Positions 29,409 to 63,572 of a DNA stretch of 64,000 nucleotides are shown here, one piece after another. Position 1 is the stretch's first letter, and every line of letters starts with the position of its first letter. Below the pieces are notes generated by a model that had not been told where the DNA came from, made no database searches, and saw only the letters and a list, made by a program, of their open reading frames with translations. The stretch comes from Comamonas kerstersii (GTDB lineage Bacteria > Pseudomonadota > Gammaproteobacteria > Burkholderiales > Burkholderiaceae_C). A program made the translations under genes and the position numbers. Location of the stretch: contig NZ_VZOT01000005.1 in the NCBI RefSeq assembly GCF_008801935.1, positions 248,001-312,000 on the forward strand, read 5' to 3'.

Positions 29409-30139
29409 GCAACGCGCCAACACTGCTGCAGGTCGAAGGCCTGAACGCCTGGTATGGGGCGGCGCACATCCTGCATGGCGTGTCGCTCAGTGTGGGCCGT
29501 GGTGAGGTTGTGGCGCTGATGGGCCGCAATGGCGCAGGCAAATCCACCACGCTCAAGGCCATTGCCGGGCTGGTCGAGCGCCGCGATGGAAAAGCGCTTT
29601 TCATGGGCGCCGACATCAGCCGCAAAGCACCGTACCAGATTGCGCGTCTGGGGCTGGGCTATGTGCCTGAAGACCGGCGCATCTTCACCGAGTTGACGGT
29701 GCTGGAGAACCTGAAAGTCGGCCGCCAGAAAGCACGCTGCTGGCCCAGCGGCGAAGCGCTGCCGCACTGGACACCTGAAAAGCTTTTTTCGTTGTTTCCC
29801 AACTTGGGTGAAATGCCGCAACGCCCCGGCGGGCAGATGAGTGGCGGCGAGCAACAGATGCTGACCGTGGCACGCACGCTGATGGGCCAGCCCTATGTGG
29901 TGCTGCTCGATGAACCCTCGGAAGGCGTGGCACCGCTGATCGTGGAGCAGATGGCGAAAACGATTTTGCAGCTCAAGGCACAGGGCATAGGCATTTTGCT
30001 GAGTGAGCAAAACCTGCCGTTTGCGCAGGTGGTGGCTGACCGCGCCTATGTGCTGGAAAAGGGGCAGATTGTGCACAGCGGCAGCATGCAGGAGCTGGCA
30101 GGCAATGCGGCCGTGCGCCAGCAGTACCTCGGCGTGTGA
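29405..30139 (+). CDS. livF: ABC transporter ATPase, LivF type
   Basis: A 244-residue ATPase that pairs with LivG. Walker A is GRNGAGKST near 40-48, YVPEDRRIFTELTV follows, then the signature MSGGEQQML and Walker B VVLLDEPSEGV. The C-terminal half carries LSEQNLPFAQVVADRAYVLEKGQIVHSG. It is the last gene of the operon and is followed by an AGCGCT dyad that may end transcription. Confidence 0.94.
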   Translation: MSNAPTLLQVEGLNAWYGAAHILHGVSLSVGRGEVVALMGRNGAGKSTTLKAIAGLVERRDGKALFMGADISRKAPYQIARLGLGYVPEDRRIFTELTVLENLKVGRQKARCWPSGEALPHWTPEKLFSLFPNLGEMPQRPGGQMSGGEQQMLTVARTLMGQPYVVLLDEPSEGVAPLIVEQMAKTILQLKAQGIGILLSEQNLPFAQVVADRAYVLEKGQIVHSGSMQELAGNAAVRQQYLGV

Positions 30140-58454: not shown

Positions 58455-59345
58455 TTACAGCGGCACAGGCGGCTTGAGCTGCGCAAAGTAATGCGCATAC
58501 CCGGCCAGAAACTTCTGCCGGTGCACGGCACGCAGGTCCAGCTCCTCGAGCAGTTCGTACTTTTCAATCAGCTGCCGGAAGGCGTAGTACGGGCTTTGCG
58601 TCTGGTGCGTGGCCGCGTACATGGCCACCACCTCAAACGCATCCTGGTTCATGATGGCCTTGAGGATGTTGGCGTAGAACATGCGGTCGCTGTGGCCATC
58701 CTGCGCAGCGTCCTCCTTGTGCAGGCCCGCCTTGGGAAACTTCTGGTCGATGAACTTCAGCATCTCAAACAGCACGGAGATGAAGTGGTCAATCTCGCTG
58801 TGGTCGGCCATCAGCAGCTTGCGCGCATCTTCCAGACTGGGTTGGGCGTGGGCCTGCTCCATCAGTGCCTGCAAAGGGGTGGAAGCTGCCGTCCCGTGCT
58901 GGGCAAGCAGCGGCGCGTTGATTTTTTCAAACGTGGAGTTGAACAGCTTGAGCAGCGAAAAGAACGTGTTCTCAAACGCGTCGAGCCGCTGCGCCGCAAT
59001 CTGCTCGGTGAACAGGCGCACATTGGCCTCGGCCGCCAGGGTGGACTTTTTCAGCTCCTCCATGGTGGCCGCCAGCTCACGGCGCTGCAGCCGCAAGGTG
59101 AACAGCAGGGCAATGAAGGAGAAAAAACTCAGAATCGGGTTGAGCACACCGCCGAGAAAGTCGCCCGACAGACCCAGCGCCTCGGCACGGCTCATGCCCT
59201 CGCCGTTGTTGGCGGTCTCCAGCCAGGTCTGGTAGTTGGACTCAAAATCCCAGTAGGTCTTGAGGTAGAACCAGACCGTACACGCCAGCAGAAAAACGGC
59301 CATCAGTTCCAGCAGGTGAATTTCTTTCCAAGCGTTCAAGCGCAT
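58455..59345 (-). CDS. Putative AbiC-like phage abortive infection membrane protein
   Basis: A 296-residue protein resembling the putAbiC family of putative phage abortive infection proteins. Two N-terminal helices (LLELMAVFLLACTVWFYL and FLGGVLNPILSFFSFIALLFTLRL) anchor it. SGDFLGGVLNPILSF and the LQRRELAATMEELKKS helix are the family hallmark. ENTFFSLLKLFNSTFEKI, FYANILKAIMNQDAF and FRQLIEKYELLEEL follow in the cytoplasmic part. Related proteins are thought to kill or stop phage-infected cells. Start ATG 59345 follows GGGAGA. It is flanked by repeats in an accessory-like region. Confidence 0.72.
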   Translation of the reverse strand: MRLNAWKEIHLLELMAVFLLACTVWFYLKTYWDFESNYQTWLETANNGEGMSRAEALGLSGDFLGGVLNPILSFFSFIALLFTLRLQRRELAATMEELKKSTLAAEANVRLFTEQIAAQRLDAFENTFFSLLKLFNSTFEKINAPLLAQHGTAASTPLQALMEQAHAQPSLEDARKLLMADHSEIDHFISVLFEMLKFIDQKFPKAGLHKEDAAQDGHSDRMFYANILKAIMNQDAFEVVAMYAATHQTQSPYYAFRQLIEKYELLEELDLRAVHRQKFLAGYAHYFAQLKPPVPL

Positions 59346-59432
59346 GTGGTATCTCCCGAAGCTCCAGTTTGTAAGGCTTGCAGCATGGAATGGCTATAGG
59401 AGAACAGCGATGCTGCAGGTCTGGTGGGCCTG

Positions 59433-59468
59433 CTTTTTATCTATGCCCGCGAGCGCTGGCAGCTATGA
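59433..59468. repeat. AGCGCT-type interspersed dyad repeat, copy 9 (partial)
   Basis: Only the right arm is good: GAGCGCTGGCAGCTATGAG (59450-59468). The left arm has decayed. Confidence 0.5.
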
Positions 59469-59505
59469 GTTTTGTATTCTCTCTCTTTCCTGCTTTTTGT
59501 TTGAG

Positions 59506-59872
59506 CGGTGTGCTTGGTTTGAGGGAGGGAGTCGGGTCTCGGCCCGACAGCCGAGTTCCTTTTTGTGCGCGACAAAAAGGAACCTTCACGCTTGCGTGGG
59601 GCGAAACTCATATTGCGAAGCAATGTGGGTGGAGACCAAAAAGCGCGTCTGCGACGCTGTCCGGCGAAACTCACTGCGCTCCTTCGTCGCTCCGTTCAAA
59701 CAGCCGCCGGAAATTTGAATTTTTATATGGGGGCACGCCAGTCTTGCCGCTGGCGTGCGGGGTAGCACAAGCGCTGCGCCTTGAACTCCCTCTCCCGCTT
59801 GCGGGAGAGGGTGGGGGTGAGGGGACATGTATCTCCTTCCCCCGCTGGGGGAAGGCGGGGATGGGGGCCAAC
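59506..59872. repeat. Solitary copy of the ~341-bp hairpin-rich repeat unit
   Basis: It shares the blocks of the array at 61248-62540: CGGTGTGCTTGG, GTCGGGTCTCGGCCCGACAG, the GCCGCCGGAAATTTGAAT block, CGCCAGTC...CTGGCGTGCGG, and CTCCCTCTCCCGCTTGCGGG. The second fifth differs: its TTCCTTTTTGTGCGCGACAAAAAGGAA palindrome replaces the array version. It lies between the AbiC-like and YdjM-like genes. Confidence 0.85.
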
Positions 59873-59933
59873 CTGGTTGGAAAATGGCCGCAAAGGCGCT
59901 GTGCTACAGCCGCTGGTTTTCTGAATGAAATAT

Positions 59934-59978
59934 GCCTCTAGCGCTTATGCAGCAAGCGCTGGTAGCTATGGATTTTGT
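59934..59978. repeat. AGCGCT-type interspersed dyad repeat, copy 10
   Basis: CTAGCGCTTATGC and GCAAGCGCTGGTAGCTATGG, immediately followed by TTTTG. A fragment of CCCTCTGGCGGGAGAGGG palindrome lies 20 bases on. Confidence 0.7.
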
Positions 59979-60062
59979 TGTTTCTCCCTCTCCCTCTGGC
60001 GGGAGAGGGCAGGGTGAGGGTGGCAGGTGCTGCTTGGCGCTGAGGCGCAGGCACTGGCCGCC

Positions 60063-61100
60063 TCACTCACCGCCCGCAGGTGCAGGTTTGCCTTTCAGGC
60101 GCTGCCACAGGCTTTGCCCTTCAAAGTCTGCGCGCAGCGTAGCTTTGAGGCGGCGCACCTGCGCCACCTTGCCTGCATCCAGCTCCTCGGGCGTGCCCAG
60201 GTCAAACACAAAGCTGTAATGCGGCTCCTGCCCCATGCGCAGATCGGTGAGCAGCACGCGGCCGTCCACCACCTCCATGCGCACCGGGCCTTGCGTAAAG
60301 CGCAGCATGCGCTGTACATGGGGCACATCGGCCCAGCGCTCCAGGTATGCCTGCCCGCGCTCGGTGGCCGTTAAGGGGATGTGCGGGTCTTGATCGAGCA
60401 GGCTGTAGAAACCTTCATGGCTGTGCGTGGGCGTAACCGCCAGCACCCGCCACAGCACGGTGTTAAAGGGCGATGCATACACCCACAGCTGCGCGTTGTG
60501 GATGTCCTGTGCCTCCAGCGACTTGTGCGCCACCGTGCGCACATGCTGCTGCGCAGCCACGCTCCACAGCAGATACACACAGCTCAAGACCAGTGCCCAG
60601 GCATTGGGCGCTCCCCAAGCCTTGCCCTTGCGTGCCCGCAGGCCAGACCACACCAGCCCCACGATCAGCGGCACGGTGTAGAGCGGGTCAATGATGAACA
60701 TGCTGCCCACGGCATAGGCATGGTCGGTAAACGGCTGGAAGAACTGCGTGCCGTAGCTGGTCATGGCGTCAATGCCCACGTGGGTGATCAGCACCAGCAG
60801 CCACGCCAGCGTCCACCGCCCCGCATGCCCGGGTGTGCCCGGCGGAGCCTTGCGTTGCAGCCACCAGTTGGTGAGCCAGCCCAACAGCGGGGAGAGCAGG
60901 GCTAGAAAGAACAGCGAATGCGACTCCGCCCGGTGGCGCACCATGTTGAGCAAGTCGTCGCCATGGTCGATCACCACGTCCAGATCAGGCAGCGTGCCTG
61001 CAATGGCGCCGATCAGGGCTGCTTTGCCAAAGGAGGTACGGCGGCCCATGACGGCCACGGTCACGCTGGCGCCGAGCACGGCTTGGGTGAGGGAGTCCAT
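60063..61100 (-). CDS. YdjM/LexA-binding-type inner membrane metal-dependent hydrolase
   Basis: A 345-residue membrane protein of the YdjM (DUF457) family. The N-terminal MDSLTQAVLGASVTVAVMGRR is typical, followed by GTLPDLDVVIDHGDD and HRAESHSLFFLALL, which carry Asp and His residues for metal binding. HVGIDAMTSYGTQFFQPF near 107 is a second family block. It has about five hydrophobic segments and a soluble C-terminal domain of about 150 residues. The function is unproven; E. coli YdjM is SOS-induced. It lies between two repeat blocks. Confidence 0.88.
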   Translation of the reverse strand: MDSLTQAVLGASVTVAVMGRRTSFGKAALIGAIAGTLPDLDVVIDHGDDLLNMVRHRAESHSLFFLALLSPLLGWLTNWWLQRKAPPGTPGHAGRWTLAWLLVLITHVGIDAMTSYGTQFFQPFTDHAYAVGSMFIIDPLYTVPLIVGLVWSGLRARKGKAWGAPNAWALVLSCVYLLWSVAAQQHVRTVAHKSLEAQDIHNAQLWVYASPFNTVLWRVLAVTPTHSHEGFYSLLDQDPHIPLTATERGQAYLERWADVPHVQRMLRFTQGPVRMEVVDGRVLLTDLRMGQEPHYSFVFDLGTPEELDAGKVAQVRRLKATLRADFEGQSLWQRLKGKPAPAGGE

Positions 61101-61247
61101 GTGTTGTGAGATGGTGGAGTGAAAAGGGTTTTGCGGGAGGCGGTGTGTTTGAGGCGAATTTGGCCGGTTGCGCCCGTCAATTCTGCGTTAGTTGCTCTGC
61201 TGTTTGAAAAGTTCTTTTCTTTGCTGTGGCTTGGTGTGCTGGTTTGG

Positions 61248-62540
61248 CGGTGTGCTTGGTTTGAGGGAGGGAGTCGGGTCTCGGCCCGACAGCCGACCCC
61301 ATTTCTTTTGCGTCGCTAAAAGAAATGGGGGAAAGAAAAGGCGAGCCTGCAGGCGGCTTGTCCGGCGAAACTCACTGCGCTCCTGCGTCGCTCCGTTCAG
61401 ACAGCCGCCGGAAATTTGAATTTTTATATGGAGGCACGCCAGTCCTGCGGCTGGCGTGCGGGGTAGCACAAGCGCTGCGCCTTGAACTCCCTCTCCCGCT
61501 TGCGGGAGAGGGTGAGGGTGAGGGGGCATGCGTCTCCTTCCCCTGCTGGGGGAAGGAGGGGATGGGGGCCTTTGCTTCTTGTTGGTGCGGTGTGCTTGGT
61601 TTGAGGGAGGGAGTCGGGTCTCGACCCGACAGCCGACTCCATTTCTTTTGCCTCGCCAAAAGAAATGGGGGAAAGAAAAGGCGAGCCTGCAGGCGGCCTG
61701 TCCTGCGAAACTCACTGCGCTCCTTCGTCGCTCCGTTCAAACAGCCGCCGGAAATTTGAATTTTTATATGGAAGCACGCCAGTCCTGCGGCTGGCGTGCG
61801 GGGTAGCACAAGCGCTGCGCCTTGAACTCCCTCTCCCGCTTGCGGGAGAGGGTGGGGGTGAGGGGGCATATATCTCCTTCCCCCACTGGGGGAAGGCGGG
61901 GATGGGGGCCAGCCTGCTCCTTGTTGAAGCGGTGTGCTTGCTTTCAGGGAGGGGGTCGGGTCTCGGCCCGACAGCCGACCCCATTTCTTTTGCGTCGCCA
62001 AAAGAAATGGGGGAAAGAAAAGGCGAGCCTGCAGGCGGCCTGTCCGGCGAAACTCACTGCGCTCCTTCGTCGCTCCGTTCAAACAGCCGCCGGAAATTTG
62101 AATTTTATATGGAAGCACGCCAGTCCTGCGGCTGGCGTGCGGGGTAGCACAAGCGCTGCGCCTTGAACTCCCTCTCCCGCTTGCGGGAGAGGGTGGGGGT
62201 GAGGGGGCATATATCTCCTTCCCCCACTGGGGGAAGGCGGGGATGGGGGCCAGCCTGCTCCTTGTTGAAGCGGTGTGCTTGCTTTCAGGGAGGGAGTCGG
62301 GTCTCGGCCCGACAGCCGACCCCATTTCTTTTGCGTCGCCAAAAGAAATGGGGGAAAGAAAAGGCGAGCCTTGCAGGCGGCCTGTCCGGCGAAACTCACT
62401 TCGCTCCTTCGTCGCTCCGTTCAAACAGCCGCCGGAAATTTGAATTTTTATATGGAAGCACGCCAGTCTTGCAGCTGGCGTGCGGGGTAGCACAAGCGCT
62501 GCGCCTTGAACTCCCTCTCCCGCAAGCAGGGGAGGGAACC
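61248..62540. repeat. Tandem array of ~341-bp hairpin-rich units (four copies)
   Basis: Units start at 61248, 61588, 61930 and 62271, with spacings of 340, 342 and 341 bases; the fourth is cut short near 62540. Each unit holds at least five palindromes in fixed order: GTCGGGTC/GACCCGAC-type, CCATTTCTTTTG/AAAAGAAATGG, CGCCAGTCCTGCGGCTGGCG, CCCTCTCCCGCTTGCGGGAGAGGG-like, and CCTTCCCC/GGGGAAGG. No unit contains a plausible gene. Units are very alike, so copy number has probably changed recently. Confidence 0.93.
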
Positions 62541-62627
62541 GGCTCGCGCATCGAAAAGGACTTTTCACCCTCAGCAGCAGATATCAACGGCCATCAGCGA
62601 TACATACAAAAACAAGAACCAAATCAG

Positions 62628-62676
62628 CCACTAGCGCCCATCCAGCAAGCGCTACCAGCTATAAAAATAGAAAAGA
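62628..62676. repeat. AGCGCT-type interspersed dyad repeat, copy 11
   Basis: CACTAGCGCCC and AGCAAGCGCTACCAGCTA, followed by TAAAAATAG. It lies just past the tandem array. Confidence 0.65.
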
Positions 62677-62730
62677 ACTCTTCACGAGCAGGCCGCCCGT
62701 GCGCAGACAGCCCACTTATCCACTGCCCCC

Positions 62731-63468
62731 TCAGGCCGTGGGCAGGAAGTACGAAGACTTGTGCGGATTGCGGCTGCTGCTGATGCACAGCTTCAGCCGC
62801 GCTTCCATGTACTGGCGCACTTCGGAGCGGTCGCACATCTGCGCCAGGTCTTCCCAGTACAGCAGGCTGGTGAACGCAGGCTTGGCAGGTGCGGCGCTGG
62901 CTTCGCCTTCGGGGGCTTCGGTGGCTTCCACGGCTTCCGGTGCGGCGGTGGTCGCAGGGGTTGCCGGAGCCACGGGCGCATAGGCAAACAGCGGAGAGTT
63001 CACGGGCGTGTAGTGCTGCACGGGGCGGCCAGCGGCTTCTTCCTTGCGGCGTGAGGTGAGGATGAAGTAGTGGTGGTGTGCATCTGCCAGGTGGGGCTTT
63101 TTCTCGGCATCAAACACCTTCTGCAGGCGCTCCAGGCCCTTGGCCACATCGGCGGCGTAGGTCCAGTTCGTCAGGTACTTGGTTTCGATGAACAGGAACA
63201 CCTGGCGTGCGGCGTCAGACACCAGCACGTCCGAGAGCTTGCTGCGCAGGCGCTCGTGCATCAGGTAGGCGTGCGTGTCGAAGGAGACGTTGGGCGCTTC
63301 AATGCGCAGATCGTCGCGGCCCGAGGCTTCCTGGATGTAGCGGTTAAACAGGGCGATGCGCTTGGAGTAGCCGGCCGTGAATTCGTTGAAAAAGTAGCCT
63401 GCAAAGAACTTGGAGCAGAGGTTGCGTTCTTTTTCGGATTCGATGAGGGAAGCGTTCGCAAAAATCAC
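62731..63468 (-). CDS. PD-(D/E)XK-like protein, possible nuclease
   Basis: A 245-residue protein (from GTG 63468). Two features suggest the PD-(D/E)XK nuclease fold: SDVLVSDAARQVFLFIETKYLTNW (Asp, then E-x-K after about 15 residues) in a predicted strand-helix context, and helical flanks. A Pro/Ala-rich linker (PVAPATPATTAAPEAVEATEAPEGE) separates it from a short C-terminal helical domain. The family is not firmly known. The start is uncertain, as no ATG begins the conserved part and TTG codons near 63546 are possible. It is the last gene before gatB's terminator. Confidence 0.55.
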   Translation of the reverse strand: MIFANASLIESEKERNLCSKFFAGYFFNEFTAGYSKRIALFNRYIQEASGRDDLRIEAPNVSFDTHAYLMHERLRSKLSDVLVSDAARQVFLFIETKYLTNWTYAADVAKGLERLQKVFDAEKKPHLADAHHHYFILTSRRKEEAAGRPVQHYTPVNSPLFAYAPVAPATPATTAAPEAVEATEAPEGEASAAPAKPAFTSLLYWEDLAQMCDRSEVRQYMEARLKLCISSSRNPHKSSYFLPTA

Positions 63469-63544
63469 AGAAAAACTTTGCTGCGCGCGGCGCAGGCCAG
63501 GAAACAGAAAGCAGGCAGCCGGCGGGTAGCCCGCTGCAATCAAC

Positions 63545-63572
63545 AAGGCCGCAGGTAGGGTGTACCTGCGGC
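63545..63572 (-). terminator. Hairpin downstream of gatB
   Basis: GGCCGCAGGTA and TACCTGCGGCC arms form a strong stem on the minus strand, followed by a weak TTGTTG run, about 70 bases beyond the gatB stop. Confidence 0.7.

Follow-up and report, generated by a model that had tools for sequence, protein, structure and literature searches.

A tandem array of a truncated fold-back element half and REP-like palindromes in Comamonas kerstersii

The array, its neighbors and its units

We analyzed a 64,000-nucleotide stretch of the draft genome of Comamonas kerstersii (assembly GCF_008801935.1, contig NZ_VZOT01000005.1, positions 248,001 to 312,000), hereafter called the window. TRF detected a single long-period tandem array in the 64-kb window, at 61247-62523, with a period of 340, 3.7 copies, 96% matches, 0% indels and a score of 2321. 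The array lies between a YdjM gene on the minus strand (60063-61100; PF04307, 111.6 bits) and an adjoining unclassified gene of 271 aa, also on the minus strand (62731-63546). A preliminary description had called these neighbors YdjM-like and PD-(D/E)XK-like. The Pfam match agrees with the first assignment; the second found no support, as the 271-aa product matched nothing in Pfam, NCBIfam or PDB sequences at the limits used.

Each unit is a mosaic: a large fold-back element, here called X, contributes a single truncated half, and two REP-like palindromes, REP-A and REP-B, follow it. A repeat search placed the unit starts at 61247, 61587, 61929 and 62271, with spacings of 340, 342 and 342, and the units were mutually 93.8-97.9% identical, which bears out, together with the TRF result, the earlier account of four near-identical tandem units of ~341 bp. 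All are read on the plus strand. Relative to unit 2 (61587..61928), delimited by TRF and the repeat search and used as the reference, unit 1 (61247..61586; X half, REP-A and REP-B) is 93.8% identical, unit 3 (61929..62269) 97.9%, and unit 4 (62270..62537) 94.8% over 267 columns. The similarity of the fourth unit ends near 62537, inside REP-A, its first REP palindrome, and the last palindrome of this truncated unit is altered. A fifth, interrupted copy of the unit lies dispersed at 59505..59875 (plus strand) and contains an extra hairpin module between the parts H2 and P7. It is 81% identical to unit 2 by blastn and 88-92% identical to the four array units over alignable columns. The array units are thus 94-98% alike as against 88-92% to a copy 1.4 kb away, indicating local homogenization. 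Blast of the window also returned an isolated REP-A copy at 59984..60025 (plus strand).

Several smaller features were observed around these sites. The fifth copy adjoins a putAbiC-type gene on the minus strand (58455-59345; PF16872, putative phage abortive infection, 35.1 bits). Palindromes of the form GAAAAG-N(1-2)-CTTTTC occur just beyond each end of the array, at 61206-61219 and 62553-62566, and twice more in the window, at 29589 and 58337. A repeat of about 30 bp, AGCGC..AGCAAGCGCT..AGCTAT, adjoins both X/REP sites, at 59940-59969 and 62633-62662, and had no other occurrence in the window by pattern.

Blast of the window and the whole C. kerstersii genome with unit 2 divided it into pieces that occur separately, at unit positions 1-~235 (the X half), 240-281 (REP-A) and 287-330 (REP-B). 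The palindromic parts follow one another in the order H1, H2, P7, P8, REP-A and REP-B; the fixed order described earlier was therefore upheld, and the "at least five" palindromes become six per unit, except in the cut fourth unit. The segment comprising H1, H2 and the linker occupies 61609..61680 of unit 2 and begins at 61269, 61951 and 62292 in units 1, 3 and 4 (all plus strand). It was located in unit 2 with an E-value of 5.5e-18 by R1, a covariance model of H1 and H2 built from 20 sequences of this genome and congeners, with array units 1 and 3 in the training set. Hairpin H2 of unit 2, found by the repeat search, spans 61639..61668 (plus strand); the linker after it contains GGCGA, the complement of its TCGCC loop, as read from the sequence, and we propose that the two may pair as a pseudoknot. 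Arm P7 (61702..61751, plus strand), read from the sequence with homologues aligned, is formed by CCTGCG ... CGCCGG enclosing the conserved AACTC ... TTCAAACA, and hairpin P8, from the repeat search, lies at 61774..61799 (plus strand). REP-A (61829..61867) and REP-B (61876..61916), both on the plus strand and both with known dispersed copies, are palindromes with G-rich tails. Compared with longer X halves, those of the window have no outer stem but retain H1, H2, P7 and P8.

Folded as RNA, unit 3 was better than every one of 100 dinucleotide shuffles on each strand (z -4.5 on the plus strand and -3.5 on the minus strand), and its plus strand folded as DNA likewise surpassed all 100 (z -3.5). 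Folding this much better than shuffled sequence on both strands is more than chance. Readings of the array as a gene, a CRISPR or an IS were all without support. A 398-aa antisense ORF runs through it and scores 29.4 bits with Ribosomal_S3_C, below the cut-off of 34.1. With units of 340, 342 and 341 bp, successive copies also fall out of frame, and the coding reading was rejected. The earlier statement that no gene, CRISPR or insertion sequence explains the array stands, but known kinds of element suffice to account for it, namely REP/BIME palindromes and a MITE-like half, amplified in tandem.

REP-like palindromes and the corresponding site in relatives

Across the C. kerstersii genome, REP-A and REP-B are short palindromes present in many copies that are clustered, alternating and tandem, as expected of REP sequences organized in BIMEs. 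At three loci (L049, L051 and L046) they form REP-A/REP-B tandem arrays, with TRF periods of 169, 169 and 196. A clustered, alternating and tandem arrangement of REPs is described for BIME-2 in PMC2817692. The palindromes of this genome resemble BIME-2 in being intergenic, in the window and a few loci, in being clustered, alternating or tandem, and in forming tandem modules that share inter-REP sequence. Unlike in BIME-2, the inter-REP sequence of the array is a structured half element of ~240 bp.

Two usual marks of REP sequences are missing. The first is the GTAG/CGTC tag, which, unlike in BIMEs, adjoins neither REP-A nor REP-B: unit 2 has a single GTAG, at 61803 and so 22 nt before REP-A, and a single CGTC, at 61726 within P7, and it contains no CTAC or GACG. 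The second is a RAYT gene flanked by the same REPs. The genome has PF01797 (Y1) genes on two contigs, C18 and C1. The former (L061) is a tnpA of IS200/IS605 type (PF01797, 151 bits) next to a divergent ORF that, from its sequence, reads like tnpB; the latter reaches 40 bits with NF047646, whose cut-off is 80. No REP-A or REP-B was found in the 5-kb loci around either gene, and a RAYT link to these palindromes was rejected on this ground. The surroundings of the one RAYT-like gene of this genome, free of REP-A and REP-B over 5 kb, are likewise unlike those in BIME systems. In view of these two missing marks, we call the palindromes REP-like.

The corresponding site in relatives was compared within 1.5 kb 3' of the neighboring gene. 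R1 matched in seven of nine relatives (five of the nine had themselves supplied R1 sequences) and not in L074 and L076; at L070, merely an H1 and H2 remnant with a shortened stem is present. The REP-A core was absent from the stretches fetched in all nine. Among named Comamonas loci with the neighboring gene, 7 of 10 had R1 matches within 4 kb.

These observations bear on the possibility, proposed by the preliminary description in terms of protein binding sites, that the array serves to bind proteins. On this reading, tandem REP pairs would bind gyrase, IHF or Pol I, by analogy with BIME-2 of E. coli, and their copy number would be under selection. The clustered, alternating and tandem REP-A/REP-B copies with periods of 169, 169 and 196 do correspond to the BIME-2 arrangement. 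However, the X part would be superfluous for REP binding, and it is X that recurs at the corresponding site in 7 of the 9 relatives, the REP-A core being found in 0 of the 9 stretches fetched. We therefore regard this explanation as unlikely.

Element X: distribution, mobility and fold

The X halves of congeners are longer than those of the array, at ~275 nt, and consist of H1, H2 and an outer stem that closes several arms, with P7 and P8 at the tip. Nine long halves share 75 consensus pairs, 36 of which show at least one pair-preserving double change, and an alignment of 36 of 38 rows (A3; two truncated rows were left out) yielded an 83-pair structure. R1 matched all 53 genomes of the genus, including that of C. 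kerstersii (E <= 0.001), and 61 of 274 sampled genomes of the class (E <= 1e-5; this count includes the C. kerstersii genome, one congener and one family member). Because R1 was built from this genome and congeners, matches within them are partly by construction.

Neighboring halves tend to face each other. In eight genomes hand-picked from earlier matches, 31 of the 37 neighboring halves no more than 2.5 kb apart among the listed matches were convergent, none divergent and 6 in the same direction (117 of 118 rows were used, one opposite-strand shadow being dropped), so that the basic element usually comprises two facing halves with H1 outward. The convergent pairs span 435-756 bp in 24 cases, 905-1965 bp in six and 166 bp in one. 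Among pairs chosen for wider or otherwise notable spacing (L136-L141), the inverted halves enclose ORFs for a methyltransferase (L138) and an ion-channel-like protein (L140), and ORFs without a Pfam family (L136, L137, L139 and L141); one of the enclosed ORFs reads, from its sequence, as lipoprotein-like. An RHH/PIN pair lies between two halves in the same direction at L151. An X pair from a different genus of the family (L155, genome G183) has REP-like palindromes of the GGGAGAGGG type in the middle of its spacer, indicating that REPs and X co-occur beyond the C. kerstersii genome.

X pairs were also found between annotated genes on the Comamonas odontotermitis plasmid NZ_CP083452.1 and the Variovorax paradoxus megaplasmid CP063167.1. 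Matches to single X halves came from records of three further genera, Pseudoalteromonas, Burkholderia and Aeromonas; the Aeromonas record, 4.9 Mb long, is more probably chromosomal. A search with one X pair gave no match among phage records, and one with a single H2 pattern gave none among viral contigs; a phage or plasmid origin was rejected given these results, though X pairs do lie on a plasmid and a megaplasmid. Word searches of open-licence PMC returned no description of X, and the titles among the matches listed for five short sequence strings look unrelated.

Evidence of transposition came from a single genome, that of the congener G033. The X pair there lies inside a MITE-like element with terminal inverted repeats, CCTGATTAGNTACNTNYCTCAG, as its 22-bp ends; this pattern had 43 matches in the genome at up to 3 mismatches, and a reversed control pattern had none. 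Both ends were recognized at 16 of 20 fetched loci, giving element lengths of 743-807 bp, and most of the fetched elements are ~77-97% alike over 740-840 aligned bases. An exact 8-bp target site duplication (TSD) flanks the element at 10 of the 16 loci, and 7 of 8 bases are duplicated at one more, so that the G033 element has both the terminal inverted repeats (TIRs) and the TSD of a MITE. A 137-bp derivative (L243, 306-442), consisting of the ends and H1 only, is flanked by the exact 8-bp duplication CATTTTGT; a second 137-bp derivative in this genome showed no matching duplication. Together, the duplications and the derivative indicate that the element transposed and that its ends were sufficient. 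As the derivative lacks H2 to P8, the conserved fold seems not to be needed for transposition there, and transposition would thus not explain why the fold is conserved.

The terminal pattern was matched in just 4 of the 53 genomes of the genus when up to 2 mismatches were allowed; it had no match in the C. kerstersii genome at this threshold, and the window unit is not bounded by it. Searches with the TIR pattern, in G033 as well as across the genus, returned no autonomous partner, the one MITE mark for which the G033 element gave no evidence, and in the loci fetched no transposase lay between ends of this kind. Outside the G033 set, scanning for TSDs gave 1 positive among 52 pairs, against 2 of 284 mismatched controls; the pairs were a non-random set of best matches or pairs of special interest, with duplications of 7-10 bp allowed as against 8-10 bp in the controls. 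The one positive is probably spurious, arising from a palindrome inside the element end. With no credible TSD outside G033, transposition is demonstrated for one lineage only. In two congeners of another family, an X pair is present in one and absent in the other at the same intergenic place behind thiC, which may reflect loss rather than gain. The two questions raised by the preliminary description, on the mobility of the unit and on covarying stems in homologues, both proved informative.

The G033 copies resemble MITEs such as ERIC and NEMIS in being non-coding, fold-back and present in many copies, with TIRs and a target duplication. They are larger, at 743-807 bp, than bacterial MITEs, for which a length of 70-300 bp is given in a passage of PMC3733652. 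Unlike MITEs, moreover, each X half is predicted to fold alone, and X was matched far beyond the few genomes that bear the G033 terminal repeats. The repeats of REPINs measure 20-40 nt. X resembles REPINs and other RAYT-mobilized repeats in being built on two structured repeats in inverted orientation that are apparently mobilized in trans, but its halves are ~275 nt long, and the 8-bp duplication in G033 differs from the single-strand mechanism of IS200/IS605 enzymes. Integron attC sites are folded sites arranged head-to-tail; X halves are also folded and in some cases adjoin small ORFs, a resemblance only, and they are mostly inverted rather than head-to-tail.

The stems of X covary strongly. 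In alignment A1, both partners had changed in 72 cells and a single partner in 1, and no shuffle out of 500 attained the covariation score, which dropped when partners were slid; the covarying stems in homologues that the preliminary description had called for were thus found. Further pair types in A1 were not above shuffles (17 versus 18.9). The relatedness of the copies inflates such statistics, loops and linkers being nonetheless diverse. The interior pairs of H2 were almost exclusively Watson-Crick: 118 copies gave 1295 Watson-Crick, 0 GT, 12 AC and 20 other pairs (1327 cells). This set derives from 137 R1 matches, 120 of them unique and 118 with H2, and left out three identical copies from L149 and L150 and short opposite-strand shadows.

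The consensus structure of the plus strand gave a GU/AC ratio of 1.14 (66 GU and 58 AC) over 35 distinct rows of A3 (36 of 38 rows used). As a yardstick, RNase P of the same genus, treated by the same procedure, gave 18.8 (253 versus 13), based on 27 distinct rows from 30 of 53 genomes (given as loci) with one short locus dropped. The covariation of the plus strand therefore shows hardly any of the G-U tolerance expected of a structured RNA, and the paucity of G-U intermediates (~1.1 versus 18.8) suggests that the fold is kept as DNA and not as plus-strand RNA. For the opposite strand, RNAalifold chose a different structure with a GU/AC ratio of 4.97, which makes an RNA of that strand less clearly disfavored. 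The H2 loop and the linker were more complementary than expected: the longest complementary stretch averaged 4.20 nt versus 3.28 with permuted linkers, the highest mean of 500 permutations being 3.50. Such complementarity indicates folding as a single strand and is not required by a double-stranded binding site.

The main competing explanation for the hairpins is a repeated structured RNA, in which the array would be transcribed and each unit would form a multi-hairpin RNA acting as an sRNA, an attenuator or an mRNA stabilizer. The strong predicted folds (z -4.5 and -3.5), the heavy covariation and the covarying loop-linker complementarity, which point to single-strand folding, are compatible with this, but the complete lack of GT among the 1327 interior cells of H2 and the GU/AC ratio of 1.14 as against 18.8 for RNase P speak against it. 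Rfam likewise gave just three matches, all far below gathering scores and to implausible families, two within 59000-63000 (E <= 1) and one among 10 loci with X copies (E <= 0.1). The "repeated RNA hairpins" of the preliminary description are thus disfavored on the plus strand (66 GU and 58 AC, against 253 and 13 in RNase P), and we consider a structured RNA quite improbable.

Our preferred reading of the X fold is that it is a single-stranded or cruciform DNA structure. The palindromes would then be kept because the DNA itself folds, either as a cruciform or as single-stranded DNA on the lagging strand, and they may be maintained by self-templated correction, by recognition by a trans-acting enzyme, or by both. 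X offers a way to test whether such palindromes stay perfect by correction on a template or through recognition by an enzyme. Covariation that is nearly all Watson-Crick, combined with a pseudoknot that itself covaries, is a signature seldom seen, that of a complex fold apparently kept at the DNA level, and the GU/AC ratio relative to an RNA yardstick offers a simple means of separating DNA folds from RNA folds among "structured RNA" candidates.

The array thus led to a large fold-back element with matches in each of the 53 genus genomes searched and in about one-fifth of the 274 class genomes sampled, which was found neither in Rfam nor in open-licence PMC as searched. We raise, tentatively and as a rather speculative extension, the possibility that X pairs represent an undescribed class of DNA, mobile or structural, that is widespread in Gammaproteobacteria (GTDB) and whose halves would form pseudoknotted, branched single-stranded DNA recognized by an enzyme in trans; the pairs would capture small genes, and truncated halves would be amplified in tandem at preferred sites.

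Proposed growth of the array

Both the X half and the REP parts are dispersed in the C. kerstersii genome, where at least 89 matches to the unit were found with 40 of 48 first-look candidates scored; as the match lists scored only part of such candidates, the copy numbers are lower bounds. Apart from the array of the window, the genome contains further arrays of REP or X and REP sequence (L049, L051, L046, L042 and L047), with periods of 169, 169, 196, 345 and 486 bp. On contig C1 (L043), an X half is flanked on either side by a REP-A/REP-B pair, the two pairs being direct repeats. Contig C6 (L042) has two tandem X-bearing units of 345 bp (TRF, 2.1 copies), and contig C4 (L047) has a longer composite in two copies of 486 bp (TRF, 2.0) that reaches the contig end. 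These three arrangements are what one would expect if (X-REP-A-REP-B)n is built by unequal recombination between the REP pairs on either side. The left edge of the array showed no REP pair, and the event that founded it is therefore no longer preserved.

The array is likely to represent a BIME-like expansion in tandem, its unit consisting of a truncated half of the fold-back, MITE-like element X and two REP-type palindromes. Unequal crossing-over or replication slippage would have enlarged it, acting between the REP pairs on the two sides of one X half. Under this model, X would have inserted at the site, one of its halves would have been lost, REP palindromes would have invaded, and unequal recombination between REP pairs would then have amplified the unit, the end products alone being visible. 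The array presumably makes no protein and no dedicated RNA, any effects on neighboring genes would be secondary, and the array itself is probably mobile-element debris.

It is highly improbable that the assembler expanded a single unit or collapsed a longer array, because the units differ mutually by 2-6% and have dispersed and tandem relatives at other loci, although collapse of extra copies is possible in this 37-contig draft, in which six contigs (C4, C6, C16, C18, C23 and C24) carry such a repeat no more than 50 bp from an end. The four units are accordingly the assembled number, and given these contig ends the true number may be higher.

Tandem expansion at this site extends to another species. 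In genome G001, three convergent X pairs lie in a row at the corresponding site (L152, 454-2622), with a period of 762 and 2.3 copies by TRF. Together with the X sequences of the other relatives, this indicates repeated or ancient occupation of the site by X, and the window array and L152 together indicate that X expanded there in tandem in at least two species and took different forms.
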